A DNA stretch of 64,000 nt from Chrysomallon squamiferum (taxonomy: Eukaryota; Mollusca; Gastropoda; Neomphalida; Peltospiridae), in contig CM022677.1 in NCBI GenBank assembly GCA_012295275.1, forward strand, positions 15,598,970-15,662,969, read 5' to 3'. Both the position numbers and the translations under genes were made by a program. Numbering within the stretch: the stretch's first letter is position 1; each line of letters opens with the position of its first letter. Below the pieces are notes generated by a model, which worked only from the letters and a program-made list of their open reading frames with translations, was not told where the DNA came from and did not search any database. This document shows positions 34,972 through 62,680 of the stretch, one piece after another.

Positions 34972-34999
34972 CTACAAACAAGTGATATTTTTATATACC

Positions 35000-37590: not shown

Positions 37591-37596
37591 GTAAAT

Positions 37597-38011: not shown

Positions 38012-38469
38012 GGCGGACAGAGCTTTGAGGATGACCCAAGGTCTGGACAGCATGCATCTGTACCTTCCTACAAAAACGCTGACCATATATGACATATGTT
38101 AATGGATGACAGGCAATAGCTAATGTTATTGACATTTCCCATGGAAGCATTCTGCACACACAACTTGGAATGACTACAGTTTTTGCTCATTGGGTTCCAC
38201 GTCTTTCAACACTTCATCAAAAACCCATCAGGCTGGTCACATCATGGACTGTTTTGAAGCAGATCAAGCCCATTTCATTGAATGTTTCCTAACCCAGAAT
38301 AATTGCTAGGTCTACCACTGTCACGTAGACACAAAGAAGAAATGAATGCATTGGAAACAAATACTCTCACCTTCAGGATTGTTTCAGTTTTTGGGGAAGC
38401 AGAGGTATTATTTTTATAGACTACCTTCAGAAGGACTAAACCATAAACAGAGAGTACTATGCTAAATTG
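38012..38469 (+). pseudogene. mariner-type transposase fragment, decayed
   Basis: In three frames the segment reads FEDDPRSGQHAS, then ANVIDISHGSILHTQLGMTT with AHWVPRLSTLHQK, then VTSWT-type and THRRNE-type remnants, and finally GIIFIDYLQKD, stop, TINREYYAKL. These are the linker, the second helix-turn-helix motif (SHGS, WVPRL) and the region around the second catalytic Asp (IDYL) of mariner/SETMAR-type transposases. The N-terminal and C-terminal ends are missing and there are several stops and frameshifts. No terminal repeats were found. Confidence 0.8.
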
Positions 38470-39002
38470 TTTTCTGTGTGCACAAGTCTGTTTAGAACAT
38501 GTGAGTTATATAATGTGTCAAAACTTTCCTAATTATTGTTTCTTATTTAATACCGGATATCTAAATAATCTCCAGATTGAAATATATGATCAAATCAAAG
38601 ATATAGAGTAGCTATGTACTTTATTGAAAATATAATTATTATTGTTGTTGTTGTTGTTGTTAATTAATTAATTTATTTATTTATTTACTTGGAGGTTTAG
38701 GACATTAATACTGCTAATAATTTAGATTTGCAAATGTTTTGCAGTTTGTATAGTTTTGTGATGAAATAAAACACGAAAAGTGAAAAGCCTGACATTTCTA
38801 AAATTACAGTAAGACACCAACTTGATACTGAAACGAGTTCTATGTACCATTCTGCAACTCCTACAATATATTTTGTGATATATAGGTTATGGTCTTGATC
38901 ATATTCTTGTTTGTGTTTCATTAGATTTTTATTCTACGTTTGTTGGAAATGTTAGTGCACTCTGTTAAAAAAAATATATATATATATTTATAATATTTTC
39001 AG

Positions 39003-39303
39003 GTCACTAAATCTAGGTGGTATTGGTGTTGTTATTGGACATGAGATCACACACGGCTTTGGTAAACTACCAAACACATCCATACACTCACTATATACAT
39101 ACATGAATATATACATATCTGACTACAGCAATATTACCATCAACAAAAAAAAAAATTATAATAAAATAAATTAAGAAAAAACCCACAAAATTAATAAATA
39201 AATAAATAAATATATATATATTTTAAAATAACCAATGAAACAAAAATAATGAATCATGATGATGCATGATATAGCAGTGAGAGTGATGATGATGATTACA
39301 AAG

Positions 39304-39337
<34 letters not shown>

Positions 39338-41708
39338 TAATAATAATAGTAAACATATATAGAAACATTTATAAAACAAAAAATAAAAATAAAATAATAA
39401 TATTTATTTCAGGAAGTCAGTATGATGAAAATAGAAATCTGAACTACTGGTGGAATGAAACATCAATATCTATGTTTAATAAAAAGGCTCAATGCTTTGT
39501 TGATCAGTATTCAAAATATCACATGGATGGTGAACATGTAAATTAAATTATAGCTTGTTGTTAACAACTTGTAGAAAGAACAGTTATTCTCATAATTAAT
39601 AAAATTTGGTATAGCTATTTGTTTTGGTGCCAAATATCTAAATAGTTCATATTTTACCATCATCAGACCAATGCTTTAAGAAATGAGCTCTTCAAAACTT
39701 GACAAAATGGAATTCATAGTATTTTAGTTTTTCAGTTTGTTGGATTATTTAACATGGAATGACCCCATAATGTTATATACAGTATATTTGCTATCTTATA
39801 TTCTTGTCCATGCATATATACATATCTATTCATCTAGTTGTACCTGCACATATTTACACATATATAATACTAAATTAAATATACTGCTATAAACATACAC
39901 ACTGAGACAAAGATACACAAGGTGTCATTCAAATTTATTTATTTCAGATCAGAGGGAAACAAACACTTCGTGAAAATATTGCTGATAATGTTGGATTGAA
40001 AGCAAGCTACAAAGTTAGTGTAGTAGTAGTAGTGGTAGCAGTAGTAATAGTAGTAATAGTTATTGTATCAGTAGTAGTAGCTGCATCAGAAGAAGTAGCA
40101 GCAGCAGCAGTAGTAGCAACTGTAGTTCCAATAATAGTAGTATTAGTAGCAGTAGTGTTAATAGCATATATGGCAACTGTGGTGTGTTATAAAATGATAG
40201 GTTATAACATAACACTGAATAAAGCAATACAAAAGCTTTCCAATGATATCAGTATGTCTGTTTGTGATAAATTGTGGCATAATTAATTATTATTAACAGG
40301 AAATGTTATACCAAAGCACAAATTTCAGAAATTTGCATGGAAGGGATACCTATATAAATAGTATATTGTAGCAGCAGCAGAAGCAGTAAGAATAGTAGTA
40401 ATTTCAGATGTAATTTAAATAACCACTATTTATTTATTTATTTATATGTTTAAGGAATATTCATATTTTACATTCAAAATTACAGGCTCTTGAAACATGG
40501 TTAGATGAAGGGAAAGGAGAAAAGCTTCTTCCTGGACTAAACTTCACACACAAACAACTTTTCTTTCTTAGCTTTGCTCAGGTAAGATACACTTAACACT
40601 GAAGCCAGTGTTTGCAAAGCCTTTTTTTGTTTATCACCAATTTTCAAGAAATAATATTGTAAAATGGAATGCCATCCAAACTCACAATAGTTTTAGAATT
40701 AATGAATTAAACTTAAAATAATTTATTAAAGTATTAAAAACAGCACACACACAATATACAAAAATATTATCGTTTAAAGATTAATGTTCTATTGTTTATT
40801 GCCTGACATTGCCTTGCATGTTAATAAAGACTTTCTTGACTTTCCACATGCTCCCTGGGTTTTTTTCCTAATCTCTTTTTCCTCTAAGTGAACACTACAG
40901 GAACGATTAATTTTATTGAAATAGTTAAATATCCTTGATGATTTTAGGGCTGGTTCTGCCATTACAAAAGGTTACTGCTGTCAAGTCAAACAGACACTAA
41001 CTGCTCCTGCAAATGTGATACACACCAATTACCCCAAAATGGTCAAAACCCCTACCATAGCCAGTCATTTGGGTTCTACAGTCCAACCTGCCAGCAGCTT
41101 CTCTAAGCACTTATAACTGATATAATTATTCTAAACTCTTTGTTTGTACAGGTGTGGTGTTCTAAAATAAAACCGGCCAGTGCTTGATATCAGATGATTG
41201 GTGATCCACATTCTCTTAACAAGTTTAGGTAACATGCAGATTAATTATTATAATACAAATGTTTCTAAATAATAATAACTACAACAACAGCAACAACAAT
41301 AACAATAACAACAACAATAATAATAATGGTAATATGACAACAAAATAGTAATAATTTATAATAATAATAATATTAGAAATAATTATTAAAAATATGGCAA
41401 CAGTAAGAATATTTTTGTTGTTGAGATAAAGGAAATGTTCATTTATTTACTTCCATTGAAACTTTTTTGTTATAATCTTTTTTATAAATTGTATTTTGTG
41501 TATTGAATTTTTTCTTTTCTTTCATTTCTTCTTTCTTTCTTTCTGTCTTTATTTATTCATTTATTTATTTCAGTTGATTTTTATTTACTTATTTATTTTT
41601 CTTTACAGAGTTATTGGCACACTTTCGAACTCCAAGGAGTTTGCTGAACAGTTTAAATGTCCACTTGGTTCACTAATGAATCCAGAACACAAGTGTCATT
41701 TATTGTGA
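39003..41708 (+). pseudogene. Neprilysin/ECE-like M13 metallopeptidase, C-terminal exons, in-frame TGA
   Basis: Five exons join in phase: 39,003-39,063 (SLNLGGIGVVIGHEITHGF), 39,413-39,537 (NLNYWWNETSISMFN and the QCFVDQY block), 39,948-40,013 (RGKQTLRENIADNVGLKASY), 40,486-40,581 (PGLNFTHKQLFFLSFAQ) and 41,152-41,228 with 41,609-41,708 (VWCSKIKPASA ... [18 protein letters not shown]). HEITH is the zinc-binding HExxH, and ENIAD supplies the third ligand Glu and the Asp of M13 enzymes. In the exon at 41,152 the frame meets TGA right after KPASA, although YQMIGDPHSLNKF continues in frame. The last residues are KCHLL where the family ends in a Cys-x-x-Trp. Upstream exons (signal anchor, N-terminal domain) were not found. 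Probably a non-functional copy or a partial gene with one nonsense change; a sequencing error is possible. Confidence 0.85.
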
Positions 41709-43510
41709 TCTGTATAAGGCATAACGTGAAACTATTTTATCAAATATAATACAGATTATAGATCAAACAAGTAATATAATTAAATTTTGTATAAACCTTT
41801 TTCTTAATTGCAGTAGTTAATTAATGATATCACATTTTTAATATTATTTATGCCTAGCTCCATACCCAAACTACACAGAGTTTCTGAATATATATTTATT
41901 TAAAGGTTTCATTTGAAACTGAGTTTGATGATTGTGTATGAACATTAGAATTTCAGCTAATAATTTATTATACAAACTTCTTAAGAATGACTTGGATAAT
42001 TTGACTGTGTTTAAAATCTGTGAATCTTAAATTTTATTTATTTTTGATTTATTTTGATTATTATAAATGTTTTTCTGTTATTGTTATTAATTTATTTATA
42101 TTTTTATAATTTTTTTTTTATCTTTATAAACACAATAATAATGGCATAATTATACTAGCTGAAAAACAAAATGTGAATTACAGATTTGTTTCTTGTTTCC
42201 ACTGGGTTTCTGTTTTTATTTTTTTAATTATTATTTTTTAGTTTCTTTTTGGATGTGTATTATTTTGAGATATGCGCTCTGTAATCCCTAGACTAAAATC
42301 ATGCTGCGAAATTAGGTAAATTAAAAGGAAAATAATCAGGGATTACTTAAGAAAGGAAACTATTTAAGATTTGCATAAACATATAAATAATCAATACATG
42401 ATCATATATTTGAAATAAACATAATAAAGGTAAACTGATAAATTGAAAACTTTGCCAGTATAGTTGCCTGACAACTGTGGTGTGCTGATAAATGTTTTGT
42501 AAAGATAATGTAAATTTATGACAAACCACTGAGCAGAACAATAAAAAAAAGCTTTCCAGTGTTAATCAGTATGACTGTTTCTGATAAAAGATATGGCTAT
42601 TTTGCTCTCACTCAGTTTATTTACATAAGACTTACTTTATTTAATTCATTTTGTAAAAATAAACAGTGTGGATGGTGCCTTTGCAAGAAAATGATTTTGT
42701 AAACAAGCCTCAAAACTTTCTGTTACTACACTGAATCTATACATAGACTTTTGTTGTTCTGTTTTCATTCTGGAGCATATTAATTATTTCATTTCTTTAA
42801 AATGCTGACATCAGCTTACCTCTAACACCAGAGGAAAAACGTTGAAGGTACATTTTGTACAATTTCAACTTTCCACCAAGTTCTTATAGTGAGATGTTTA
42901 TTTTTAAGATTTCCATATATTAGTGGACAGTATTGGCTGCATGTTATGATTTTGAAGAAACTCGCCAACAAAATTAAAAATATCGACAGTGTTTCAAATC
43001 ATTAGTTCATGACTAGAAATGTTTTGAATAAATTCTGATATTTGCTTTGCAAAACTTCTAAATTATCACTACGTAAGTAGATCCATTATTAAGTTTCACT
43101 TTATATTTCTTTATTTATTTATTTTAAAAGAATTCAATTTAAAAAGGAAGAAAGACAGCAAGAAAGAATTCAACCAAAATATATTATATTCTCGAACTTT
43201 GAATTATTAATACATATTTTTGAAATATATAAAGTTCATCTTTCGAGCAATCTGCACAAAAATAAATAAGCATGCATGTCCAAATATGCAATGTTACTTA
43301 CATGAGGATGCAAATCAAACAGATGTATTAAGAATATACGTTTATAAACGTTAAAACTGTCGTCTGCTTTTCGTACCGGATATTGGTACGAAACCTCCAC
43401 AGTAACTTCCACCAAAAGATTACGAGCACAGCATGATTATTGTTGTCGTTATAATTAAGAAATAATAATAATAATAAAAATAAATAAATAAATTGAAAAT
43501 AAAATAAATC
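41709..43510. other. AT-rich 3' flank of the peptidase locus, no gene
   Basis: Unique AT-rich sequence with TTTATTTATT runs. No credible exons. Confidence 0.6.
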
Positions 43511-43515
43511 AATAA

Positions 43516-43543
43516 ACAATAATAATAATAATAATAATAATAA

Positions 43544-43602
<59 letters not shown>
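43516..43602 (+). repeat. (AAT)n/(AGT)n compound microsatellite
   Basis: About nine AAT units, then about twenty AGT units. The poly-Leu or poly-Thr frames are by-products. Confidence 0.95.
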
Positions 43603-43603
<1 letters not shown>

Positions 43604-44934
43604 CACTGGTAGTAATCATACTAATTGTGGGACTATACATTGTAGTGGTAGTGGTTGTAATAGTAGTTGTAGTAGTAGAACTAGTAGTAACAATTTTCAT
43701 ATTAGAAAATAAATGAATATGGAATTTTATTTTTACTTTTTATTTTATTTTATTTTATTTTATTTTTTAGACCATACGTTTATTGCATTCAGTAAAATGT
43801 TTTATCGCATCAATTTCTTGACTTTCACATTACAATTGTGCGTGCGTCTGTGTCTGTGTGTGTGTGTGTGTGTGTTTCTGATAAGTAAATTATTAAACAA
43901 TATTCCATTAATTTTTTTTTCTTTCTGTGGAGATCAAATACTGCCCCTCATAATGGATAAAATAACAATAATAATAACAATAATAATAATAATAATAATA
44001 AATCAATAAATAAATACATACATAAATAAAGAAAGAAAGAAAGAAAGAAAGAACAACAAAAGAAAGAAAAAATCTACCGATTGGATTAGCAGTATAATCA
44101 CATATACGAGATCATATTTCGTGTTCCAAAAACTATTTTCAGTGCATTGTGTATTTTAAGCTTAAAGTATGAAAAGAGTCCGTTTCGAAATTTTTTTTAA
44201 AATTATTTTATATTTTTTTAATACTTCTTTGTTAAATGTACATGTTTATTCCTTTGAAACTTCAGTATGACAGATGAAAAATAAATAAACTCTCAAATAA
44301 TATGAAAGGTCATAATGCATCATACACTGTTACCAATAGCAATACCAAGAACTAACCAACGTCTTCACTTTCGGAACTTTACAAATACACGAACAGACAC
44401 TGGTTCTTTGTTGACAGAAAAAAATTAACCACGAGAACTAGTTGTCAGGGGCATGTCTGTTATCAAACTAATGAAGCTTACGTTTCTAGGCTCCAAATCC
44501 CAGAATTGACTTTGCTCCATTTTTCCCAAAATTTTAATCAATACCTTAGAATTGTCTAAATTTTTAAATCCTCTCATAGAACTGCAATATGAAATGATAA
44601 GAGTAGTTACCCCATAATTGTTCAGTCTTCACGGCCTCAGAAATACAGGTCAGCTGGCGCTATTCTAAACAAAGGTTATTACAGATATAAGACGTTGTTG
44701 TCTTTAATTTGTTTCTTTGTTGTTCTTGTTTTTTTTCTTTGTTTAGTGAGATTTTTTATTTTATACTTTTATTTTTATTCATTTATGTTTTTTTTATTAT
44801 TTTTTTTTTTTTTATTTTTTTTATTTATTTTTTTTTTTTGTCGGTTTTCACTGAGCAGAGAATCAATAGAAATTAATGTCCGTTAGTTTAATGTTTTACA
44901 CTGTTGTCAACTTAGTTTATCCCAGAATATAATT

Positions 44935-44938
<4 letters not shown>
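43603..44938. other. Low-complexity and unique AT-rich DNA, no gene
   Basis: GTAGTGGTAGT stretch to 43,690, (TTTTA)n near 43,735-43,765, (GT)n near 43,852, AAATAAAT and GAAA repeats near 44,030. The 44,340-44,700 part is less simple but has no open exon. Confidence 0.6.

Positions 44939-44991
<53 letters not shown>
44939..44991 (+). repeat. Poly(A) run of 53
   Basis: Uninterrupted A tract. No retroposon body, target duplication or pol III box was recognised upstream, so it could be either a simple slippage tract or a poorly preserved retroposon tail. The length may be inexact in the assembly. Confidence 0.9.
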
Positions 44992-44993
<2 letters not shown>

Positions 44994-45264
44994 CACGGAC
45001 CCTTGCTTAAAGATAATTTATATAATGAAACAAAAACATTATTTCTGTTGTTTTAAAGTATCAGTTTTCTCCAAATTAAAATTATTCCGACTAAAATAAT
45101 ATTTAATATAAATGTCATATTATGCAAACATTTGTCACAAGAATAATTTAATTAACTGTATATGTATCATTAATCTTATATTTTGCTATTCAGAGGTGCT
45201 TTAAACCATCATGGAACTCCATTTAAAGTTTGTTACAGATAGTATTTCTTCTCCGTCTTCTTCT

Positions 45265-45390
45265 TATTCTTCTTCTTCTTATTATTATTATTATCATCAT
45301 CATCACCATTATTACTACTATTACTACTACTACTGCTACAACTAAGACTACTACTGCTACAACTAAGACTACTACTACTACCACAACTAC

Positions 45391-45455
<65 letters not shown>
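45265..45455 (+). repeat. Compound TTC/ATC/ACT/ATT microsatellite
   Basis: A chain of trinucleotide blocks: CTT, ATT, ATC, ACT with CTACAACTAAGA interruptions, and finally about 22 ATT units. Not coding. Confidence 0.95.
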
Positions 45456-45456
<1 letters not shown>

Positions 45457-45974
45457 TGAAATGCATCGTAAAAGAAACATGCTGAAGATACAACCACTGT
45501 GTCTGCTGACATTCAAGTATTGGTTACACGAGAAAAACAACAACAAAACATAAAAAAATATCCAGAACCTGATGCTGAATACTGCTTTCCAATCCAACCA
45601 CTCTGTTAACAAATTAAACGCTTCAGATAGGTATAAACTATTACTTCTGCGAATTGTCTAGAACAATGTCACACTAAATCATTTCTTGTCATCTTAATCG
45701 CATACCGCCTACGTTTTACCTAACAAAGTACCTTACTAAACAGACAAAGCTTCACTTCAACAGTCTTTCGTTTCTGAACCAAACAAACAAAATTTAACTA
45801 GAAAATAACATATATTAATGTTCACCATGACGATCAGTTTCAATAAAACCAAATAAGAGTAACATTTTAAATGGGTGACATCAGTTTTAAATAAAAAGTA
45901 GCCGGAATAGGTTTCACTTACACAAGCAAAAAGATGCATGCTACCGCATGTTTTCGTAATTAAACGTTCATCTC

Positions 45975-47522
45975 CTACTCGTATGAATTTATAGAGCATG
46001 GCCGTCTAAATATTTGTCCCTTCTCTCGAATCCAGTAAGTTGATACCCATTTGGAACCGACAAGAACTGGACAAGCCACATGTCTTGTTTTGGTGTCTGG
46101 TTTGCCATTACGATATAAATTATACCAAAATACTGCTGAACCTTTTACAGGTAATATTTTTACACCAAGATAGGGGAAACCTGTTGCACCTCCTTCTTCT
46201 ACGTTACTCATGTAGATTAAACATGTGGCAATTCGGTTTCCTTCCGTCGAATTACTTTCAGTGTCATCCATGTAGTCTCTATGAAGTTTATGGAACCCAC
46301 CTATTCCATAGTTTGCAACCTGCAACATTTCCGAGCTTTTCATCGATAGACCTGTGATCGCTTCAACTCTTTTCTGGATTTTCAAATCGACGGTTGTCTC
46401 GGTCGAAAATAGAAACACACTTTTTATAATTCTCAGTCTCGAAATTAACCTTTTCCCATCAATAATTACATGACCTTTTTCTAAACGTGGATTAGAGACT
46501 GTTTTAGTTTCCTCAATTTCTCTGTCGCTGACAATATCGTGATAGACAACTAGTGGTGGTGAAATATGAAGAATCTCCTATTTGGCTGGCTTCAAACCTA
46601 GGAACGGATGTTTATTATTATTATTATTGTAGTAACATTTCAGCTTGTCTTTATTTCGAATTTTAATTTCTTCTTTACCACGACATAGAGAAGTGTAAAT
46701 CATATGTTCTTCAGACTTGATTTTTTGGCCATTTGTTTTCTTCTTACCGTTTAGAAATTCTGTATATTTTATCCTTCTGTCGACTGCTTTCTGGAGATAA
46801 GGATCTGAATGTAATTGTTCATTTGTAAGTTTCAAGGCTTCTGTTATGTCTCCTTCCATTCCATTACTGCATATTCAATAATTTCTAGCCGAGACACACT
46901 TTGAATTTTTTCAGTTCTTTCTTTATTAAGAGCTATTTCCATCCAAATATATAAATATCGATACTCTGTTAAATTGTAGGCTAGCAGGCCTAGATGATAA
47001 CAGTCTTCTGAAGATAAAACATGTATATATCGTTCATTAATAAAACCCTCTGCCAATCTTGTCGCATTTAATTTGTACGTGTCTTGAAGACGAAACAGTG
47101 CTGTAGCTACACATTCCAAGTCTTCGTAATTACGAAGATTTTCACGTATCTCCTTTATTTTAAATGTACATAATTCAGACTTCATTCCCAGAGTCACAGG
47201 TGCTACTTCTTGATCCCAGTCCAAAAAGATGGCGATTCCAGTTTATAGCAAAACATTTAACAAATAAAAACGCACCAGTTGGATTGAAAATATAACGTAC
47301 TGAGTCTTCTCTCGCCTTCCAACTGTGTTCTTCTATGTTATCCGAAATTATGTTAAGTTTTCTCTATTTCTTTCCTTCAGCAAATGTACGTGTTAATTTT
47401 TTTATAGTTATTGCCAAATCTCTTTCAGCATGTAGTGCGTTATACACATGTGATGTCGACAGAAAGAGATGTGAGTTCGCGACTCCCATCATCAACAACA
47501 ACGTGAGAAAGTTCTGATACAT
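45975..47522 (-). pseudogene. Collagen prolyl 4-hydroxylase alpha pseudogene (copy A')
   Basis: Starts MYQNFLTLLLMMGVANSHLF at 47,522 and follows the intact gene at 52,179 along its whole length, but with three breaks. First, a net insertion of about 22 bases near 47,225-47,250 disrupts FTLDWD. Second, a deletion of about a dozen bases near 46,860 removes the TFGRE stretch. Third, a GAG to TAG change turns KEEILHIS into K-stop-EILHIS at about 46,576. The C-terminal catalytic half remains open and keeps the HRD motif, the distal His (TRHVACPVLVG) and the Lys (GSKWVSTYW). Intronless like its relatives. Strong resemblance to the 52,179 gene (shared HKLHRDYMDDTESNSTEGN) suggests late decay or gene conversion. 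Confidence 0.9.
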
Positions 47523-47700
47523 CTCTCTTCTTTAGAATATAATTGTTTTGGTGAACTGTTCGGATACTTGTCAGAGCAGAATACATTAAGGAAGTGTTCT
47601 TTATGAGTAAACGAAGCAACCCATATTTTAGATGTGTTTTCAAAGGTTTTTGTTTCAAGTAACATAACTAACGATAAAATTATTACTTTGAAATTAATTT
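47523..47700 (-). promoter_or_regulatory. Conserved P4HA 5' flank (copy A')
   Basis: This flank is shared, in gene orientation, by all six P4HA starts or relics (next to 47,522, 50,614, 50,979, 52,179, 54,236 and 58,204). It holds an AATAAAATTAATTT block, TTGAAAACACATCTAAAAT, an ACTTCCTTTAAGTAT block and, just before the ATG, TTCACCAAAATAATTATATT with CTAAA and AAGAGA. Conservation at all starts suggests promoter and leader, though common descent alone could also explain it. Confidence 0.5.
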
Positions 47701-47759
47701 TATCGCTGAAAAACCTGATACATAATAACCTAATGAAGAAAGCTAAGAAAAATTAAGAA

Positions 47760-49310
47760 TAATAAAATACTTATATAAAAAAGCAATAACATTTGAGAAG
47801 AAGAATTAAAATCATCGGTGTATATGTCTGTATTGTTTCTTTACTGGTGTACAATCGTTATCATTATTTTTCAATTACCTTTTTATCTGTTCTATACTTC
47901 TCACTTATAATGATGTTTTTAAAATATAGTTACTTTTGTAAAATGATTCAACGACTGAATGTGTAATGAGGATACTCAACTTAATTTTTCTTTATGTATC
48001 ATGTATAGAGTTATACGAGTTTCAAAGTAAAAAAAACAAACAAACAAAATAACAAACAAAAAACAAACAAAAAGAAAACGTAAAAATAAAAAACGGGACC
48101 ATTGAAAATCAGAACAGGACCAGTGCGACATAAAAATAATAATGAATATTCATGGCTGTAGTCATAAAACCAACATTGAGGTTAACATTACTTTTCTACG
48201 ATGTCCCTGGTAATACGGCGTTTTATGCGCAATCACGTAAAACACGATTTTCTGTGTTTATGTGTGGCGAAGATAGAAAATCTCGTTTTTCTTTAACAGA
48301 AACCCCGATTATCTATGAAACTGTGTTTCATTAGATACATTTCGTTTTTCTGTATTTCAATCAGAGAAAAGATAAAATAACGACAAATACTAAATAAATA
48401 GGTATTCATAATTTTAATCAGTAAATAAACTGACAAGCGAATAGAGCTTCGATTCCACGGTTTTCTGTTACGTCCGCAAGAATTTTATATCTACGGGCTT
48501 CGACGTTTGATTTACAAGTTGAAGTCCTGGTTTGGGAAGCGGCAAGGAGGTCAAAGAGGAATAATTTGAAATTTTGCTTTGATAAACATTTTGCAGCGAT
48601 TAAATGCTTTACTCCAGTGTTGTATTTTTATTACCAATCATTAGCTAGTCAGTCAATTTGTTCTTCTTTCTTTTATTTTTGTCTATTTATTATTATTTTA
48701 TTTTATTTTATTTTTTTATTAATTAATTAATTTATTTATTATTATTATTAGTAGTAGTATTTCTACAAGAGTTAGGTAGCACAGCTCTAAGAAAAGTTAC
48801 TGTAATTATATTATAAATACAACATTTCTAAGGTACAAGTTCTAAAACATATTCGGTGCCAAGATTTTATTTATTGTTTAGTAGAAACCAGTGATGGACA
48901 TGAGTTTCAGAAAGAAGGGTAAACTGTGGTCTATGAGTCTGAGGTTGGGGTTGACAGGGCACAGACTTTAGAAATCCTTGTAAGTCACTGTCTTATAACA
49001 AATGTGAAACAAAATTAAAACTGTTAGATCACATTTATATTGTTTTTACTTTATTTATTTATTATTTATTTATTTATTAATAGTTTTTTTTTTAATAATA
49101 GTGTGAAAATAACTAAGATCGATCTTCAGGAATTTATGGGTTTCTCGAATCTAGATAAATGCCTCAGTATCTCTGTCCAGTATTCTGGAGAAATTTGGCA
49201 GATAACTTAATTGTCATTAACATGGTGTTTATGCATGGTTAGACTAATAAGAGATTCTCATCTGTGATTTACATCAATCCACAACTTACGCTTAAAAATA
49301 ATTAGTTTCC
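47760..49310. other. Spacer between P4HA copies, mirrored at 55,780-57,700
   Basis: The reverse complement of 48,070-49,310 matches 55,780-57,660. This includes the block with CAGAGGTTGGGG-type sequence and TGACAGGGCACAGACTTTAG (48,955) and the AGATCGATCTT block. It contains the conserved 48,152-48,334 segment listed separately. No other gene. Confidence 0.7.
48152..48334 (+). CDS. Strongly conserved 60-codon frame of unknown nature, copy 1
   Basis: A 183-base open frame starting MAVVIKPTLRLTLLFYDVPG and ending IYETVFH. Its partner at 57,412-57,594 (opposite strand) differs at a single base (a Thr/Ile change), whereas the flanks differ more. It has no splice signals, no signal peptide and no domain that I recognise. 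It may be a short gene, a promoter-type element shared by the P4HA genes, or DNA homogenised by gene conversion. One nonsynonymous change in 183 bases does not prove coding. Confidence 0.35.
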   Translation: MAVVIKPTLRLTLLFYDVPGNTAFYAQSRKTRFSVFMCGEDRKSRFSLTETPIIYETVFH

Positions 49311-49315
49311 GACAA

Positions 49316-50614
49316 TTATTCGTAGTTAAAGCTACTTCTGGCAATCCTGTTTCCTTCGGTCGAAATAATTTTACTATCATCGATGTAGTCATTATGAAGT
49401 TCGTAATACCCTCCTATTCCATAGTTTGCCACCTGCAGAAATTCTGAGTATTTCATGGATAGTCCTGTGATGGCTTCGACTCTTTTCTGGATTTTCAAAT
49501 CTGAATTTGTCTGATACGGTGACAGAAATACGTTTTCGCTAATTCTGAATTTCGAAACTGAGCTTTTGCCATCAGCGTGAACAAGAGACCTTTTCAAAAG
49601 TGGATTAGAGACTGTTTTAATTTCCTCTATCTCCCTCTCGCTGACAATATCATGATAGACGATTATTGTTGGTGAAATATGAAGAATCTCATCTTTCGCT
49701 GGTTGTAAAACCAGGAACGGATGGTTGTTATTACTGTAGTAACATTTCAACTTGTGTTTATTTCGAATTTTAAATTTTTCTTTACCACGACATATAGAAG
49801 GGTAAATCATATTTTCTTGAGACTTCATTTCTTGCCCTATTGTTTCCTTTTTACTGTTTCGAAATGCTGTGTATTTTGTCCTTGTCTCGGATGCTTTCTG
49901 GAGATAACGATTTAAATATAATTGTTCGTTTGTAAGTTTCAGTACTTCTTTTATGTCTCCTTCCATTTCTCTACCGTAAATTGCATATTCAAGAAGTTCT
50001 AACCGAGAAACATTTTCAGTGTTTTCAGTTCTTTCTTTATTAAGAGCTATTTCCATCCAAATATACAAATGGCGATAATCTGTTAAATTGTAGGCTAGCA
50101 GGCCTAGATGATAACAGTCTTCTGAAGATAAAGCATGTATATATCGTTCTGTAATAAAACCCTCTGCCAGTCTTGTAGCATTTAATTTGTACGTGTCTTG
50201 AAGACGAAAGCTAGCTGCAGCTACACCTTCCAAGTCTTCGTAATTAGGAAGATGTTTACGTATCTCGTTTATTTTAAGTGTATGTAATTCAGACGTGTTT
50301 CTTAAAATTACAGGTGCTACTTCTCGATCCCAGTCCAAAGTAAAACGTTTAACAAATAAAAACGCACCAGTTGGATTGAAAATATAACGTACTGGGTCTT
50401 CCCTTGCCTTCCAGCTGTGTTCTTCAATGTTATCTGAAATTGTATTCAGTTTTCTCCATGTGTTTTCTACAGCAGTTGTACGTGCTAGTTTTCTTATAGT
50501 TATTACTATATCTCTTTCATCGTGTAGTGCGTTGTACAGATGTGATGTCGATGAAAAGAGATTTGAGTTCGCGATTGGAATCAGCAATAACAAAATCAGA
50601 AAGTTGTGATACAT
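49316..50614 (-). pseudogene. Collagen prolyl 4-hydroxylase alpha truncated by 3' deletion (copy B')
   Basis: An open frame of 432 codons beginning MYHNFLILLLLIPIANSNLF. It keeps the signal peptide, the N-terminal P4H alpha domain, the peptide-binding region (LPNYEDLEGVAA, SSEDCYHLGLLAYNLTDY) and the first iron ligands (LHNDY, H407 and D409). After GNRIA it jumps to RSSFNYE and stops. RSSFNY is encoded by sequence that in the sister gene at 54,236 lies just after the stop codon, so a deletion of about 260 bases fused the coding region to the 3'UTR. It removed the distal His, the 2-oxoglutarate-binding Lys and the final disulfide. The protein could fold in part but should lack hydroxylase activity. 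Intronless. Confidence 0.88.
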
Positions 50615-50790
50615 ATCTCTTCCTTTTAGAATATAATTATTTTGGTGAATTGTTTAGAGCAGAATGCAATGAAACGATGAAACAAGTCGTATTTCCATAT
50701 GTGTTTTCAAAGTGCGTTCTTTTTCACTTACATAAATGACGACGAAAGTATTACTTTAAAATTAATTTTATTGCTGGAAAACCTGTTACA
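50615..50790 (-). promoter_or_regulatory. Conserved P4HA 5' flank (copy B')
   Basis: Same motif order as at the other P4HA starts, ending TAATTATATTCTAAAAGGAA and GAGAT before the ATG. Confidence 0.45.
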
Positions 50791-50934
50791 GTAGTAACGC
50801 AATTAAACAAATTAAGACACATTAATGATAATAACGTGCGAAGAAGTCTGTTTTTTTTCCAGGATTTTTTATTTCTAGAAGTCGGATAAACGATCCTGTA
50901 CCCTGTTAGAGAAACTCGTCAGAGAACCTCCTAT

Positions 50935-51175
50935 GTTCGACTGGCATCATCAACAACAACATGAGAATGTTCTCGACATAATTCTTCTTTTAGTACTTAA
51001 ATATTTTGGTGAATTGTCGAGATACGTTTTAGAGCAGTATACTTAAAGGAAGTGCTTTTAATTAAGCAATGAAGCAACCCATATTTTAGATGTGTTTTCA
51101 AAGTCTTTTGTTTTGAACTAACATAAGTAACAATGAAAATATTACTTTTAAATTCATTTTATAGGTGAAAAAACC
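50935..51175 (-). pseudogene. P4HA 5'-end relic (left inner position)
   Basis: Minus-strand ATG at 50,977-50,979 followed by a shifted version of the signal-peptide region (GTTGTTGTTGATGATGCCAG at about 50,945-50,965), then similarity ends. Upstream (to about 51,175) the conserved P4HA 5' flank is present. This is the start of a lost gene. Its mirror position in the other arm holds the intact gene at 52,179. Confidence 0.7.
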
Positions 51176-51179
51176 GATA

Positions 51180-51889
<710 letters not shown>

Positions 51890-51999
51890 GCAATAACTAA
51901 AACACACTAAGTTGGATTACAATTCTAAAATAATTCTTATTTGATCTCGTTTTCGAGTTTTAATTCTTTATTACTTTATTACTTGTCATTGCATCAGAT

Positions 52000-52178
52000 G
52001 TCTCAGTAATAAAATTAACTTACAAATATATTAATTTTTTTTAGTTCACTCATATCAATTCAGAGAAATACAATACCTTGAAAACACATCTGCATTCGAT
52101 CCATTTTAGTAAAGCATTCAACTCTAAAAAAAAGTATTTGAAATTTCAGCAAAACAATATTATTCTATACCAAGAGAC
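52000..52178 (+). promoter_or_regulatory. P4HA 5' flank (copy A)
   Basis: A more diverged version of the shared flank: CAGTAATAAAATTAACTTAC, TTGAAAACACATCTGC, then TATTATTCTATACCAAGAGA before the ATG. The middle ACTTCCTTTAAG block is not clear here. Confidence 0.4.
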
Positions 52179-53708
52179 ATGTATCAGAACTTTCTCACGT
52201 TGTTGTTGATGATGTCAGTAGCGAACTCACATCTCTTTTTGTCGACATCACATCTGTATAACGCACTACACGCTGAAAGAAATTTGGCAATAACTATAAG
52301 GAAATTAGCACGTACAATTGCTGAAGAAAACAAATGGAGAAAACTAAACACAATATCAGAGAAAATGGAAGAACACAGCTGGAATGCAAGAGAAGACCCA
52401 GTACGTTATATTTTCAATCCAATTGGTGCGTTTTTATTTGTTAAATGTTTTACTTTGGACTGGGATCGAGAAGTAGCACCTGTAATTTTAGGAATCATGT
52501 CTGAATTACATACACTTAAAATAGACAACATGCGCAAAAATCTTCCTAACTACGAAGACTTGGAAGGCGTAGCTGCAGCTATGTTTCGTCTTCAAGACAC
52601 ATACACATTAAACGCGACAAGATTGGCAGAGGGTTTTATTAATGAACGATATATACATGCTTTATCTTCAGAAGACTGTTATCATCTAGGCCTGCTAGCC
52701 TACAATTTAACAGAGTATCGATATTTATATATTTGGATGGAAATAGCCCTTAATAAAGAAAGAAATGGAAAGATTCAAAGTGTTTCTAGGCTAGAAATTC
52801 TTGAATATGCAACATTCGGTAGAGAAATGGAAGGAGACATAAAAGAAGCCTTGAAACTTACAAATGAACAATTACATTTAGATCCTTATCTCCAGAAAGC
52901 ACTCGACAGAAGAACAAAATATACAGAATTTCTAAACGGTAAGAAGAAAACAAATGGCCAAAAAATCAAATCTCAAGAAGATATGATTTACACTTCTCTA
53001 TGTCGTGGTAAAGAAGAAATTAAAATTCGAAATAAAGACAAGCTGAAATGTTACTACAATAATAATAATAAACATCCGTTCCTAGTTTTGAAGCCAGCCA
53101 AAGAGGAGATTCTTCATATTTCACCACCACTAGTTGTCTATCACGATATTGTCAGCGACAGAGAAATTGAGGAAATTAAAACAGTCTCTAATCCACGTTT
53201 AGAAAAAGGTCATGTAATTATTGATGGGAAAAGGTTAATTTCGAGACTGAGAATTATAAAAAGTGTGTTTCTATTTTCGACCGAGACAGCCGCCGATTTG
53301 AAAATCCAGAAAAGAGTTGAAGCGATCACAGGTCTATCGATGAAAAGCTCGGAAATGTTGCAGGTTGCAAACTATGGAATAGGTGGGTTCCATAAACTTC
53401 ATAGAGACTACATGGATGACACTGAAAGTAATTCGACGGAAGGAAACCGAATTGCCACATGTTTAATCTACATGAGTAACGTAGAAGAAGGAGGTGCAAC
53501 AGTTTTCCCCTATCTTGGCGTAAGAATATTACCTGAAAAAGGTGCAGCAGCCTTTTGGTATAATTTATATCGTAATGGCAAACCAGACACCAAAACAAGA
53601 CATGCGGCTTGTCCAGTTCTTGTCGGTTCCAAATGGGTATCAACTTACTGGATTCGAGAGAAGGGACAAATATTTAGACGACCATGCTCCACATATTCAC
53701 ACGAGTAA
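52179..53708 (+). CDS. P4HA-like: Prolyl 4-hydroxylase subunit alpha, intact, intronless (copy A)
   Basis: Catalytic alpha subunit of collagen prolyl 4-hydroxylase, an Fe(II)/2-oxoglutarate dioxygenase that turns X-Pro-Gly prolines of collagens into 4-hydroxyproline in the ER, normally as an alpha2beta2 complex with protein disulfide isomerase. 509 residues, close to the usual 520-550. Signal peptide 1-18 (NFLTLLLMMSVANS), N-terminal dimerisation domain, helical peptide-binding region (about 140-235; LPNYEDLEGVAA, CYHLGLLAYNLTEY), then the dioxygenase domain. Iron ligands H408, D410 and H475, and K485 for 2-oxoglutarate, are all present. Cys pairs C275/C291 and C478/C503 match the two conserved disulfides. 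N-glycosylation sites NAT and NLT. No introns. AATAAA at 53,726, only 18 bases after the stop. Start chosen because the signal peptide and 5' flank are shared by all copies. Confidence 0.95.
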   Translation: MYQNFLTLLLMMSVANSHLFLSTSHLYNALHAERNLAITIRKLARTIAEENKWRKLNTISEKMEEHSWNAREDPVRYIFNPIGAFLFVKCFTLDWDREVAPVILGIMSELHTLKIDNMRKNLPNYEDLEGVAAAMFRLQDTYTLNATRLAEGFINERYIHALSSEDCYHLGLLAYNLTEYRYLYIWMEIALNKERNGKIQSVSRLEILEYATFGREMEGDIKEALKLTNEQLHLDPYLQKALDRRTKYTEFLNGKKKTNGQKIKSQEDMIYTSLCRGKEEIKIRNKDKLKCYYNNNNKHPFLVLKPAKEEILHISPPLVVYHDIVSDREIEEIKTVSNPRLEKGHVIIDGKRLISRLRIIKSVFLFSTETAADLKIQKRVEAITGLSMKSSEMLQVANYGIGGFHKLHRDYMDDTESNSTEGNRIATCLIYMSNVEEGGATVFPYLGVRILPEKGAAAFWYNLYRNGKPDTKTRHAACPVLVGSKWVSTYWIREKGQIFRRPCSTYSHE

Positions 53709-53725
53709 GACATGAAATTTTAACA

Positions 53726-53731
53726 AATAAA
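53726..53731 (+). terminator. Polyadenylation signal AATAAA (copy A)
   Basis: Canonical signal about 18 bases beyond the stop codon of the 52,179 gene. A GTTTGTTTCC GT/T-rich stretch follows at 53,750. The 3'UTR would be very short. Confidence 0.5.
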
Positions 53732-54049
53732 ACATGTGCTAACTTTCTTGTTTGTTTCCTCTGTATATTAAACTCATTCCAGCTATACAAGTATTTGCTT
53801 TTTATTTAAAATTTATGTGACTTATTTAATATGTTAGTAATATTGAGGCTATATAAAGGATACGAATTTTCTGTTAAAAAACCTTGACATTTAAGAAAAA
53901 TGTTTTAGCGATAGTAATTTTAAAACAGCAGAACAGGAAAGAAGCTGTACACCCAGATAAAGCGATAATTTATATTTCACTGGTTTAATTTTCCACCTTA
54001 TTATTGTTAATTTCTCTTTTCTTAATTACATGTCTACTCTTCCAGGTTT

Positions 54050-54235
54050 TTCGGCAATAAAATTAATTTTAAAGTGTTATTTTTGTCGTCACTTACGTTA
54101 GTTCAAAGAAAACTCTTTGATAACACACCTGGAACAACAATTTGTTTTATTGCTTCATTACATTCACTTTCCTTAAGTATTTTGCTTTGAAGAGTATCTG
54201 GATAATTAACAAAATTATATTCTAAAACAAGAGAT
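54050..54235 (+). promoter_or_regulatory. P4HA 5' flank (copy B)
   Basis: AATAAAATTAATTTTAAAGT, a GTTAGTTCAAAG block, the ACTTCCTTAAGTATTTTGCT block and AATTATATTCTAAAACAAGA GAT before the ATG, in the same order as at the other starts. Confidence 0.5.
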
Positions 54236-55765
54236 ATGTATCAGAATTTTCTCACGTTGTTGTTGATGATGGGAGTCGCGAACTCACATCTCTTTCTATC
54301 GACATCACATCTGTATAACGCACTACACGACGAAAGAGATTTGGCAATAACTATAAGAAAATTAGCACGTACACTTGTTGATGAAATGAAAAGGAGAAAA
54401 TTAAATATAATTTCAGATAACATGGAAGAACACAGTTGGAAAGCAGGAGAAGACCCAGTACGTTATATTTTCAATCCAATTGGTGCGTTCTTATTTGTTA
54501 AGCGTTTTACTTTGGACTGGGATCGACAAGTAGCTCCCATTATTTTAGGAATCAAGACTGAATTATATAGACTTAAAATAAAGGAGATACGTGAAAATCT
54601 TCCTAATTACGAAGACTTGAAAGGGATAGCTGCAGCTATGTTTCGTCTTCAAGACACGTTCAAATTAAATGCAACAAGATTGGCAGAGGGTTTTATTAAT
54701 GAACGATATATACATGCTTTATCTTCAGAAGACTGTTATCATCTAGGCCTGCTAGCCTACAATTTAACAGAGTATCGCTATTTGTATATTTGGATGGAAA
54801 TAGCTCTTAATAAAGAAAGAACTGAAACAATTCAAAATGTTTCTCGGTTAGAGCTTCTTGAATATGCAATATATGGTAGAGAAATGGAAGGAGATATAAC
54901 AGAAGCCTTGAAACTTACAAATGAACAATTATATTCAGATCCTTATCTCCAGGAAGCAGTTGAGAGAAAGAAATATTATAAAATTTTTCTAAAATATAGC
55001 AATCAAATCAGTGTCGAAAATGACCCCTCTTACCACGATATGAACTATAGTTTTCTTTGTCGTGTTAAAGAAGAAATTAAAATTCAAAATAGAGAAAATC
55101 TGAAATGTTATTTCAGTAATAATAAAAATAGTCCCTTCCTAGTTTTGCAGCCATCGAAAGAGGAGATTCTTCATATTTCTCCACCAATAGTTGTCTATCA
55201 TGACGTTGTGCGCGACAGAGAAATTGAGGAAATTAAAACAGTTTCTAATCCACTTTTAGAAAGAGCAAATATTACCGTTGACGGCAAAAGCTTCAAATCA
55301 GAAAACAGAATTAGCAAGCACGTTTTTCTATTCAAAACGGAGACAACCACGGATTTGAAAATCCAGAAAAGAGTTCAAGCGATAACCGGTCTGTCGGTGG
55401 AAAGCTGTGAAATGTTGCAAGTGGCAAACTATGGAATTGGTGGGTTTTTTGACCTTCATCGGGACTATTCAAGTAATCGTGAAAGTGTTTCTGCCGACGG
55501 AAACCGAATTGCCACATTGTTAATCTACATGAGTAACGTAGAAGAAGGAGGTGCAACAGTATTCCCCTATCTTGGCTTAAGAATATTACCTGAAAAAGGT
55601 GCAGCAGTCTTTTGGTACAACACATATCGAAGCGGTAAACCAGATACGAGGACAAATCATGCGGCATGTCCAGTTCTTATTGGCTCTAAATGGGTTTCAA
55701 CTTACTGGATTCGAGAAAAGGAGCAAGTATTTAGGCGGCCATGCTCCACAAATGCACACGAGTAA
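54236..55765 (+). CDS. P4HA-like: Prolyl 4-hydroxylase subunit alpha, intact, intronless (copy B)
   Basis: 509 residues, same architecture as the 52,179 gene: signal peptide (NFLTLLLMMGVANS), N-terminal domain, peptide-binding region, dioxygenase domain. Catalytic H408, D410 (FFDLHRDYSSN), H475 (TNHAACPVLIG) and K485 (GSKWVSTYW) are present, as are C275/C291 and C478/C503. The region around residues 250-285 (NQISVENDPSYHDMNYSF) and the stretch after the HRD motif differ from copy A, where substrate specificity might differ. It lies 527 bases downstream of copy A in the same direction with its own 5' flank, so it is a tandem duplicate and not part of an operon. AATAAA near 56,013. The mirror partner is the truncated gene at 49,316-50,614. 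Confidence 0.95.
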   Translation: MYQNFLTLLLMMGVANSHLFLSTSHLYNALHDERDLAITIRKLARTLVDEMKRRKLNIISDNMEEHSWKAGEDPVRYIFNPIGAFLFVKRFTLDWDRQVAPIILGIKTELYRLKIKEIRENLPNYEDLKGIAAAMFRLQDTFKLNATRLAEGFINERYIHALSSEDCYHLGLLAYNLTEYRYLYIWMEIALNKERTETIQNVSRLELLEYAIYGREMEGDITEALKLTNEQLYSDPYLQEAVERKKYYKIFLKYSNQISVENDPSYHDMNYSFLCRVKEEIKIQNRENLKCYFSNNKNSPFLVLQPSKEEILHISPPIVVYHDVVRDREIEEIKTVSNPLLERANITVDGKSFKSENRISKHVFLFKTETTTDLKIQKRVQAITGLSVESCEMLQVANYGIGGFFDLHRDYSSNRESVSADGNRIATLLIYMSNVEEGGATVFPYLGLRILPEKGAAVFWYNTYRSGKPDTRTNHAACPVLIGSKWVSTYWIREKEQVFRRPCSTNAHE

Positions 55766-57411
55766 CAGAAGTAGCTTTAACTACAAATACTTGTCGGAAA
55801 CTAATTATTTTTAAGTGTAAGTGATGGATTGAAGTAAATCACAGATGCGAAACTCTTATTAGTCTAACCATGCATAAACACCATGTTAATTACAATTAAG
55901 TTATCTGCCAAATTTCTCCAGGATACTGGACAGAAACTGAGGCATTTATCCAGATTCGTAAAACCTAGATCGATCTTACCTATTTTCACACTACTATTAG
56001 AAAATAATTATCAATAAATAAATAAATAGAAATACTATACATATGAGGTAAGAGTTTTTTTCTTCCACATTTGTTATGAGATACAGATCACATCAAAAGT
56101 AGATAAGATACAAGTCTGGTATAATTACTTTTTTAACCTGTGAAATTCAAGGAGAAAATGTGAGACTTTCTGTTATTAAAATGCAGTTCCACTACGCCAT
56201 TGCTATTGGTATCTATTACAAATATAAAAAAGAAGAAAAATTATAATTTCTGAATTTCAGACAAAGCAATTTCAAACTAGTAATATATTTAATTTATTAA
56301 TTAATTTTTAGTGATTTGTTTTTTCATTTTTCTGATGTACACACGATATTAAGTTCATATCTAAACATAAATATGTATTCCTTTATAAGATCAATTTAAC
56401 ACACACCACACACATACATAAATAAACAAAATAAAATGAATAAAAAAAAAGAAAAAAAAAAAGAAAAGTAGAACAAGAACGAAGACAACTAAACAAGGAT
56501 CATTTATGGAAATACTGGATATACAATGGAACACTAACAAACTGCATTTTCATATTATTTTCCGCAATAACAAACTAGTAATTTTTACAATAAGACTGCA
56601 TTAAGGGAAGTAATAGATGACTCAATATTGCCTCCTTTATCTGTCTCACAGTAACAAACTGAATTTTCATCAAATTACAGAAAATTTCTTACAAGGATTG
56701 CTAAAGTCTGTGCCCTGTCAACCCCAACCTCAGACTCATAGACCACAGTTTACCCTTCTTTCTAAAACTCATGTCCATCACTGATTTTTATTAAACAATA
56801 AATAAAGTCTTGGCACCGAATATGTTTTAGAACTTCTACCTCAAACATGTTTTATTTATAATATAATTATATGTAGTTTTTCTTAGAGCTGTACTACCTA
56901 ACTCTTGTAGAAATACTACTACTATTACTACTACAACTGCTACTACTATTACTACTAATAGTAATAATAAATAAATAAATAAATAAAATAAAATAATAAT
57001 AAATAGACAAAAAATAAAAATAAATAAGAATAAATTAACTAACTAATGATTGATAATGAAAATACAAATTAGTAAAACACTGCCTCTAATCTGTTGCCGC
57101 TGCCAAATGTGTGCTTACCAAAGCTCTGCGAAAATTTCAAATTATTCCTCAGTGACCTCCTTGTTCATCAAACGGAACCGTTGTCATGTTCAACCGTCCG
57201 TTTGTCGCTTACCAAGCCAGGACTTCAACTTGCAAATCAATCGTCGAAGCCCGTAGATATAAAATTCTTGCGGACGTAACAGAAAACCGTGGAATCGAAG
57301 CTCTATTCGCTTGTCAGTTTATTTACTGAGTAAAATTATGAATACATATTTATTTAGTATTTGTCGTTATTTTATCTTTTCACTAATTTATATACAGAAA
57401 AAGAAATGTAT
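55766..57411. other. 3' flank and spacer, mirrored at 48,350-49,310
   Basis: Contains the AGATCGATCTTACC block, GACTCATAGACCACAGTTTA (56,730) and AGT/ACT trinucleotides (56,920-56,965). It also has an insertion of about 60 bases near 57,160-57,215 that is absent from the left arm. The balanced-composition stretch at 57,090-57,280 is open in two frames for about 60 codons but these frames are not conserved in the left arm. Confidence 0.6.
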
Positions 57412-57594
57412 CTAATGAAACACAGTTTCATAGATAATCGGGGTTTCTATTAAAGAAAAACGAGATTTTCTATCTTCGCCACACATAAACACAGAAAATC
57501 GTGTTTTACGTGATTGCGCATAAAACGCCGTATTACCAGGGACATCGTAGAAAAGTAATGTTAACCTCAATGTTGGTTTTATGACTACAGCCAT
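57412..57594 (-). CDS. Strongly conserved 60-codon frame of unknown nature, copy 2
   Basis: Mirror of 48,152-48,334 with one base difference. It reads MAVVIKPTLRLTLLFYDVPG with SLIETP in place of SLTETP. Same doubts about coding. It is divergent from the P4HA relic at 58,204, as copy 1 is from the pseudogene starting at 47,522. Confidence 0.35.
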   Translation of the reverse strand: MAVVIKPTLRLTLLFYDVPGNTAFYAQSRKTRFSVFMCGEDRKSRFSLIETPIIYETVFH

Positions 57595-58014
57595 GAATAT
57601 TCATTATTATTTTTATGTCGCACTGGTCCTGTTCTGATTTTCAATGGTCCCGTTTTTTATTTTTTCGTTTGTTTTTGTTTGTTTTTTGTGTATCAATCTC
57701 TTGTAACTCTATCAATGATACATAAACAAAAATTAAGTTACCTATCCACATTATACACTGAAGTCGTTCAATCATTTTAAACAAGTAACATTCTTTCAAA
57801 AACAACATTGTAAGTCAAAAGTAGACAGAAATAATATGAAACTAAAAGTAGAGAACAGACAAAAAGGTAACTTAATAACCATTGTACACGAATAGAGAAA
57901 CAATACAGACATATATATCGATTCTTCTCAAATATTATTCCTTTTTTACATACAAAATTTGATTATTCTTAATTTTTTTTTACTTTTCTTTATTACGTTA
58001 TTATGTACCAGGTT

Positions 58015-58203
58015 TCTCAGCAATAAAATTAATTTCAAAGTAAAATTTTGATCTTTACTTATGTTAGTTGAAACAAAAATCTTTGAAATCACATCTAAAA
58101 TAGGGCTTGCTTCATTTACTCATTAAGAACACTTCCTTTAAGTATTCTGCTCTGACAAGTATCCTAACAGTTCACCAAAATAATTATATTCTAAAGAAGA
58201 GAG
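58015..58203 (+). promoter_or_regulatory. P4HA 5' flank (right outer relic)
   Basis: Full set of conserved blocks (CAATAAAATTAATTTCAAAG, ACTTCCTTTAAGTATTCTGC, TTCACCAAAATAATTATATT CTAAAGAAGAGAG) directly before a P4HA start codon that no longer leads to a gene. Confidence 0.5.
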
Positions 58204-58282
58204 ATGTATCAGAACTTCCTCACGTTGGTGTTGATGATGCCAGTCGCGAACTTACATCTCTTTTTATCGACATCACATGTGT
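58204..58282 (+). pseudogene. P4HA 5'-end relic (right outer position)
   Basis: ATG followed by MYQNFLTLVLMMPVANLHLF LSTSHV, then similarity ends abruptly at about 58,282 and the frame stops soon after in unrelated AT-rich DNA. It mirrors the start of the pseudogene at 47,522. A deletion or insertion removed the rest of the gene. Confidence 0.85.
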
Positions 58283-58475
58283 TTAAGAATAAGTATAACT
58301 TTTCCAGCAACTATTATTCATATGTTGAGAATTGAGTTAAAATTCAAAATATTCTTAGACCCAATTTTATACAATTATTGCCTTCACAAAGTTTACAAAT
58401 CATTTCATTTTATTTTGTAATTTGTCCTGTTTTGTGTGAATGAATACCCCAATTATTTATTTATCCATTTGTTAG

Positions 58476-59252: not shown

Positions 59253-60245
59253 CAGGCACACATATCTGCAGAGACATACTAACGTACATACTGACATACA
59301 TCTTCACACATACAGTGCAGAACATAAATGTAATACATAATAACTGATACTATCAAAAACATTTCTTATAATAATTGGCCTATGAAAACAACAAAGATAA
59401 AGATAAAACTCTGAAAAAACAGGAGCTAGTAATAAAAACTGATCTATCAATTAAACTTTTCCTGTGTATTTTAAAAATGTGGAATAAATATCAGTAAAAA
59501 ATCATACGACTATTAACTACAATTTTATAATGTTTGTTTGCACCTCTATTAAAACTAACAAAATATTGCTAAAATTATTATTATTTACCTACTACAACTA
59601 CAGTTATTTAACTCCTTTTTTAAATTAGTACTACAAATTAATTTTTTTTATCACTATCCCATTAAAACTGATCTATTATTATTATTATTATTATTATTAT
59701 TAAATTATTAATATTATTATTAAAATTATTATTTTTTTATTACTATTACTACTACTACTGTTTCTAGTTGGGTTTCTTTGAAAAGTAGTAGCTGTTATAA
59801 TTACTACTGCTGATGCTATTGCTACTATTACAGCTATTGCTGCCGATGTTTTCGGTGCTAATTACATCTCTGTCACAAATAGTAACAACTGTTTACTACT
59901 ATAAAATACGAGAAGCTATTAACAAGTGTTATTTTTCCTCCTGTGTATGTATATAGTAACAAAAATAAACATATTAAATCTCAAATATTTGCAAGCTTCT
60001 GTTTTAATATTCTGTATTAAAAAATAATTTTTTACTGAAAAATACAAAAATAATTTGTTACCTAATGAGTTTCCACTCAAGTGCTTTAACTCAGACATGT
60101 GTGCCTTTGTGGTATAATAGAACGACTAAAGACACCATCAGTTTCAATCTTAAATTTAAATAAAACTGGCCTGAGTATTTTCTACAAAGCATTTAAACAT
60201 ATAAATTGATAACCAAATATTTCTTAACACACGCACACACACACA
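58545..60245. other. AT-rich DNA with CA runs, no gene
   Basis: (CA)n at 59,136-59,150 and 59,219-59,250, ATT at 59,672-59,703, and ACT/GCT trinucleotides at 59,745-59,850. No supported gene. Confidence 0.6.

Positions 60246-62642: not shown

Positions 62643-62680
<38 letters not shown>

Follow-up and report, generated by a model that had tools for sequence, protein, structure and literature searches.

A palindromic P4HA gene cluster with chimeric genes and a gene conversion tract in the scaly-foot snail

Genes for the alpha subunit of prolyl 4-hydroxylase (P4HA) are arranged as an imperfect palindrome on one chromosome of the scaly-foot snail, Chrysomallon squamiferum. The cluster lies in a window of 64,000 nucleotides (G000:C13:15598970-15662969) of a genome that was searched over 404,604,130 bases in 22 contigs; positions are those of the window unless a contig or c2 is named. 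Two intact genes, A and B, are found in the right arm, and a truncated gene, B′, and a frameshifted gene, A′, in the left. A second P4HA cluster, termed c2, starts ∼242 kb from the first on the same chromosome; eight genes (g1 to g8) were found in the 50 kb read there. As a built-in outgroup, c2 allows three processes to be distinguished within ∼20 kb: homologous fusion, end joining and gene conversion. The cluster is an unusually readable case of known genome processes and does not represent a new kind of system.

Genes and inverted arms

Gene positions are termed inner, middle, outer and outermost, counted from the centre. The features of the locus are:

38247..45900, plus strand: flank F, with the 3′ portion of an M13 (neprilysin-type) peptidase gene that faces A′ tail-to-tail; the block end is approximate
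45978..47528, minus strand: A′, frameshifted P4HA with an outer (g7-type) 5′ part and an A/g5/g2-type 3′ part; flank F lies downstream
47529..49171, minus strand: left spacer, including the outer-gene upstream region; inverted match to 55.9-58.2 kb
49172..49350, minus strand: 3′ flank of B′, common to the B 3′ flank; 92% inverted match to 55756-55934
49316..50620, minus strand: B′, truncated P4HA with an inner (g4/g1-type) 5′ part, a middle (g3-type) 3′ part and a 256-bp 3′ deletion
50938..51582, minus strand: central relic, a truncated piece with the first P4HA codons and the spacer upstream of them
51768..51886, plus strand: (GA)n run at the palindrome centre, read directly from the sequence
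52179..53708, plus strand: gene A, intact single-exon P4HA (first ATG at 52179, stop at 53708), inner gene of the right arm; counterpart c2 g5
54236..55765, plus strand: gene B, intact single-exon P4HA (first ATG at 54236, stop at 55765), middle gene of the right arm; counterpart c2 g6
55766..57961, plus strand: right spacer, 93.5% identical to c2 inward of the conversion tract
57962..58286, plus strand: right relic, the outer-gene upstream region and first 89 coding bases; counterpart c2 g7

Genes A and B display P4Ha_N, peptide-binding TPR and 2OG-Fe(II) oxygenase domains, all three above the Pfam cut-off. Their active-site stretches are HRDY at 410 and HAACPV(L)(V/I)GSK at 477, and the pattern HxD ... 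H ... K is taken here to be that of the P4H active-site residues. On the basis of these domains and residues, both genes are predicted to encode ordinary collagen-type P4H alpha subunits. The closest solved structure in a structure-relative search is P4H subunit alpha-2 (E 1.1e-65). Among the best 120 of 2380 matches to gene A, the top relative is from Gigantopelta aegis (47% identity), and the named relatives near the top are mostly from molluscs, with some from insects. The ratio of nonsynonymous to synonymous substitution rates (dN/dS) is 0.34 for the intact pair B/g6 and 0.31 for the intact pair g1/g4, and both pairs appear to be under purifying selection.

Inverted matches between the left and right halves span genes and spacers and cover 5635 of the 5949 left-half bases; none of 100 first-order Markov shuffles gave any match. 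The palindrome, first proposed in a sequence-only reading of the window by a model, is thereby borne out. The single centre near 51.8 kb given in that reading is replaced by several midpoints: the gene starts have theirs at 51.4 kb, the 3′ flanks of the middle genes at 52.6 kb, and the outer spacer together with the outer gene start at 52.9 kb. These differ because the left arm is shorter. Arm-to-arm identity is mostly 73-90% outside the conversion tract described below. The left arm continues to ∼38.2 kb, through the flank with M13 peptidase exons, beyond the interval 45,975 to 58,282 first assigned to the cluster. Right-arm homology stops at the end of the right relic (58286), and no c2 match above an 80-bit filter was found for the missing arm end in the 10 kb beyond the window. 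A 98-base, 100% match found beside other P4HA copies turned out to be a (GA)n run.

Comparison with c2 gives A and B their mirror partners. Positions 49341-58286 of the window are colinear with c2 30967-39863 (88% over 9.1 kb), pairing B′ with g4, A with g5 and B with g6, followed by the spacer and the g7 start. The centre recurs between g1 and g2, and this third copy is 89% identical to the one between g4 and g5. As the centre is present in three copies, the head-to-head palindrome centre predates the split of the clusters. At 81-82% identity, the right arm of the window (51960-57886) also corresponds in mirrored order to g4, g3 and the spacer of the c2 left arm, where ∼4.2 kb found only in c2 intervene between g3 and g4; A is therefore mirrored by g4, and B by g3. 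In a tree of the flanks, B, B′, g3 and g6 have one common 3′ flank (clade support 100/100), and the flanks nearest to that of A, after g5, are those of g4 and g1. The c2 right arm goes on with g7, g8 and then a flank F′ with an M13 peptidase exon.

The central relic is 93.4% identical to c2_relB, with which it shares its truncated end, 86.1% to c2_relA and 72.0% to the right relic and spacer. Its counterparts flank the other two copies of the centre as well, and it is a separate, older extra fragment. The 5′ relic that had been placed in the left arm does exist as a truncated gene start, but a remnant of the lost mirror partner of A was rejected as its identity, given the same end in c2_relB and the equivalents that adjoin both other centres.

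Chimeric genes and the mirror trees

Both left-arm genes change parental type along their length. The junctions are:

47206..47260, minus strand: A′ fusion scar, a g7-type segment and then its A/g5-type equivalent, in a 12-copy alignment
50327..50348, minus strand: best single breakpoint of the B′ fusion (g4 versus g3), gene positions 272 to 293

The upstream region and early coding sequence of B′ are like those of g4 and g1, and its later coding sequence and 3′ flank are like those of g3. Diagnostic sites divide 101:8 before the break and 21:270 after it (0 of 1000 permutations). Approximately unbiased (AU) tests reject a grouping of B′ with g3 for the 5′ segment (p 0.00018) and one of B′ with g1+g4 for the 3′ segment (p 2e-5). 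The switch is in register and between neighbours, the flank is included and one gene unit is gone, as in fusions within tandem arrays. B′ is a fusion of the inner and middle genes of the left arm, and unequal homologous recombination between the two would be the simplest cause. The 256-bp deletion, sized from coordinates and later than the fusion, took the gene end, including the distal His and Lys; the Pfam N and peptide-binding domains are found in B′, with no oxygenase match at E 0.001. B′ had been described as a truncated gene, and truncated it is, but it is not a plain mirror copy of B.

The 5′ part of A′ is like g7, the 3′ part like A, g5 and g2, and the downstream flank like that of g2. 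Its diagnostic sites divide 88:20 before the break and 39:312 after it (0 of 1000 permutations). The gene has two frameshifts, a 22-base out-of-register insertion and, further down, a 7-base deletion. The switch, 22 bases out of register, is not of the in-register kind expected of a tandem-array fusion, and the junction looks like the product of end joining. A′ is a fusion of an outer and an outermost gene; as a frameshifted P4HA it fits its first description as a pseudogene, but it is not a plain decayed copy.

A gene of c2 deserves mention here. Gene g2 (C13:15902969-15904504), of the A type, is interrupted by an in-frame stop at codon 118 and is followed immediately by flank F; it perhaps represents a third fusion, of an inner with an outermost gene.

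Trees of the coding sequences were named in the sequence-only reading as a means of refutation, together with similarity in the spacers. The outcome is divided. Spacers and flanks are mirror-homologous, and mirror copies are sisters in the flanks, but they are not sisters in the 5′ and 3′ coding trees. For the 5′ segment, the AU tests reject both mirror groupings, B′+B+g3+g6 (p 5.05e-8) and A+g5+g2 with g1+g4 (p 1.1e-4). Both are also rejected for the 3′ segment (p 0.0065 and p 2.2e-8, respectively), and neither is for the middle one (p 0.358 and p 0.56). Fusions and conversion would account for the non-sister coding copies better than absence of a palindrome.

It had been proposed that a unit of three P4HA genes was inverted-duplicated and that each arm then lost a different gene, with B′ as the truncated mirror of B and the relic as the mirror of A. 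The gene order, the mirrored spacers and the mirrored 3′ flanks agree with this proposal, as does the mirror grouping of B′ in the middle coding segment. On the other hand, the 5′ end of B′ follows g4/g1, c2 has complete mirror partners for both A (g4) and B (g3), flanks included, the central relic is an additional piece that is present beside the other two centres too, and a fourth gene, g8, precedes the M13 flank in the c2 right arm. Simple loss from a three-gene unit is thus unlikely. What stands is an old inverted duplication whose arms lost different genes; four genes are likelier than three, and the left-arm gene units that are gone would have been lost by fusion of neighbours.

Exchange between the arms

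The conserved 183-base block that had been noted in both arms is found there, equated by position with an inverted match of 48059-48348 to 57398-57687 (97%). It is part of a longer tract:

48117..48503, minus strand: conversion tract, left arm (inferred donor), containing the conserved block
57244..57629, plus strand: conversion tract, right arm (inferred recipient), where identity to c2 drops

In this ∼387-bp tract the arms are identical at 379 of 386 sites (98.2%), compared with 88.0% and 86.3% on either side, and none of 10000 permutations attained its maximum-segment score. The right arm is 85.4% identical to its c2 counterpart inside the tract and 93.5% and 91.8% outside, so that the arms agree better with each other than with their c2 counterparts. 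As it is the right arm that departs from c2 inside the tract, the left arm is the donor. A 6-base and a 4-base gap in the tract are common to both window arms and are not present in c2. The suggestion that arms of this kind can exchange sequence by gene conversion is supported by this spacer tract, and the exchange may have involved direct pairing of the arms. No sign of GC-biased conversion was seen, the changes in the tract being 15 AT-to-GC, 23 GC-to-AT and 15 other.

A second exchange, between the coding sequences of A and A′, is suggested by their 3′ coding part, where A matches A′ at 597 of 608 positions and g5 at 592 of 608; the grouping A+g5 is rejected at p 0.0145.

Could the conserved block be a functional element, a small gene or RNA, instead of a conversion tract? 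An open 62-codon frame is present in both arms with one residue different, but it is broken in both c2 copies, by which a small gene was ruled out. The block is only 85-88% identical to c2 and no less diverged than its surroundings, and no Rfam family reaches its gathering score anywhere in the window. A functional element is extremely improbable.

The fusions or the conserved tract might also be artefacts of assembly. The scaly-foot snail genome was assembled from nanopore and Illumina reads and is described, in the text available of its paper, as having 1.38% heterozygosity (PMC7142155). B′ and A′, however, differ by several per cent from each c2 parental type and so are not direct joins of known copies. 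The defects in A′ are of 22 and 7 bases, unlike single-base homopolymer slips, and the window and c2 differ by ∼12%, beyond the allelic range. This explanation is considered highly improbable.

The ancestral palindrome and its setting

The outer end of the arms is marked by the M13 peptidase gene, whose exons in flank F were spotted by HExTH and other motifs that we take to be typical of M13 peptidases. The HExTH motif is near 39040, and further exons are near 39415-39540 and 39950-40010. PF01431 matches 39253-39546 with 27.0 bits (cut-off 24.5), and the frame 39906-40286 has 16.6 bits for the same family, below the 24.5 cut-off. Flank F is homologous to c2 in inverted order at 82-85%, and the M13 exons of F in the window and of F′ in c2 run in mirrored directions. 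The c2 flank F that follows g2 apparently does not have the HExTH exon. Judging from the two clusters together, each ancestral arm probably comprised four genes, with the M13 peptidase gene at its end.

At a probability of roughly 0.78, an older palindrome made up of single-exon P4HA genes is present in two or more copies, among them c2 and the cluster in the window, which subsequently underwent fusions, truncation of the right arm and exchange between arms. From left to right, the ancestor would have displayed the M13 flank, outermost gene, outer gene, spacer, middle gene, inner gene and centre, then the mirror order. The present two clusters would have arisen by copying on the same chromosome. 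The left arm of the window cluster may then have lost gene units as same-direction neighbours fused, inner with middle to form B′ and outer with outermost to form A′, the first join being in register and the second out of register and end-joining-like. The right arm would have been cut off 89 coding bases into the outer gene. After the split of the clusters, the right arm presumably received the ∼387-bp spacer tract from the left, and coding sequence may also have passed between A and A′. Mirror homology, the two chimeras with their breakpoints and the conversion tract are seen directly in the sequence, and the order of events is a reconstruction.

Several points weigh against this scenario. 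Neither cluster has the full four-plus-four set, and the c2 left arm is without outer genes. The other c2 copy of flank F follows g2 and is not mirrored relative to the c2 left arm. The middle coding segment lends firm support to neither a fusion nor a mirror grouping, the numbers for the exchange between A and A′ are weak, and the groups in the AU tests were chosen after the identities had been seen. Minority sites of the other parent persist (in the g3-type part of B′, for instance, 21 sites are of the g4 type); such sites in each copy make more than two exchanges likely. The data are from a single assembly, and misassembly in repeats is a possibility.

P4HA genes are abundant on this chromosome. 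The genome count is a lower bound, as the protein search scored 84 of 272 candidates; it gave 91 matches, which on merging at <1 kb form 73 loci. Three merged loci each consist of two adjacent genes (A/B, g5/g6 and g7/g8), for a total of ∼76 loci. Of these, 69 are on C13, which comprises 7% of the genome, four on C9 and one each on C1, C7 and C11. The family of this collagen-modifying enzyme is thus seen expanded to ∼76 loci, 69 of them on one contig. The C13 loci are spread over 0.8 to 17 Mb in both orientations, and many are broken; another broken copy is at C13:15575821-15577335, ∼22 kb left of the window. Copies that are stop-free over ≥95% of the query number 22 (A, B, g6, g7, g8 and 17 others).

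This scatter of ∼69 loci in both orientations, and the heavy mixing of the coding sequences, would agree with a history in which no unit was inverted-duplicated, genes being duplicated and inverted singly and the arms made alike by repeated conversion. Spacers, gene flanks and the M13 flank, however, are mirrored in order over several kilobases, and such a history is very unlikely. A further proposal, that C13 is a lasting P4HA foundry in which recombining palindromic arms repeatedly yield chimeric, catalytically dead hydroxylases like B′, some of them kept as regulators or partners of active copies, is a long shot.

Parts of the arrangement recall other systems, as far as the accessible text of the respective papers goes. 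Primate X-chromosome palindromes also have large inverted arms that exchange sequence by gene conversion; there, conversion is GC-biased and arms are kept >99% identical (PMC8981503). The arms here do not display such identity along their length, being mostly at 73-90% with one ∼387-bp tract at 98%, and the tract shows no sign of GC bias. In Drosophila, the P4H alpha family shows a similarly large lineage expansion, likened here by description, with at least 26 fly candidates, some isoforms without the catalytic domain, and a cluster at 99F8-9 named in the title of a reference; neither a palindrome nor conversion is described in the accessible part of that paper (PMC12340787). In a duplicated region of maize, of another kingdom and gene family, changes in gene structure by both end joining and homologous recombination were reconstructed, as in the present cluster (PMC2686159).

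Among the open-licence papers searched, no report was found of a P4HA expansion in C. squamiferum or of a P4H alpha subunit gene cluster with gene conversion, and nothing on P4H gene family expansion in molluscs or gastropods, as judged by title or start of abstract. The words prolyl, hydroxylase and collagen are not found in the accessible main text of the scaly-foot snail genome paper (PMC7142155) or of the Gigantopelta paper (PMC7895826).

Other repeats are found in the window. Positions 1-11058 with 28474-36083 form a second, more eroded palindrome (inverted matches of 65-89%, 6616 of 11100 left-arm bases), in which no P4HA gene and no c2 homology beyond simple repeats was detected. Just outside the right end of the cluster, 60184-62900 is a divergent satellite array with a unit of ∼56 bases. 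A remnant of a Tc1/Tc3-type transposase is present on the minus strand at 18203-18580 (PF01498, 32.0 bits; cut-off 31.5).

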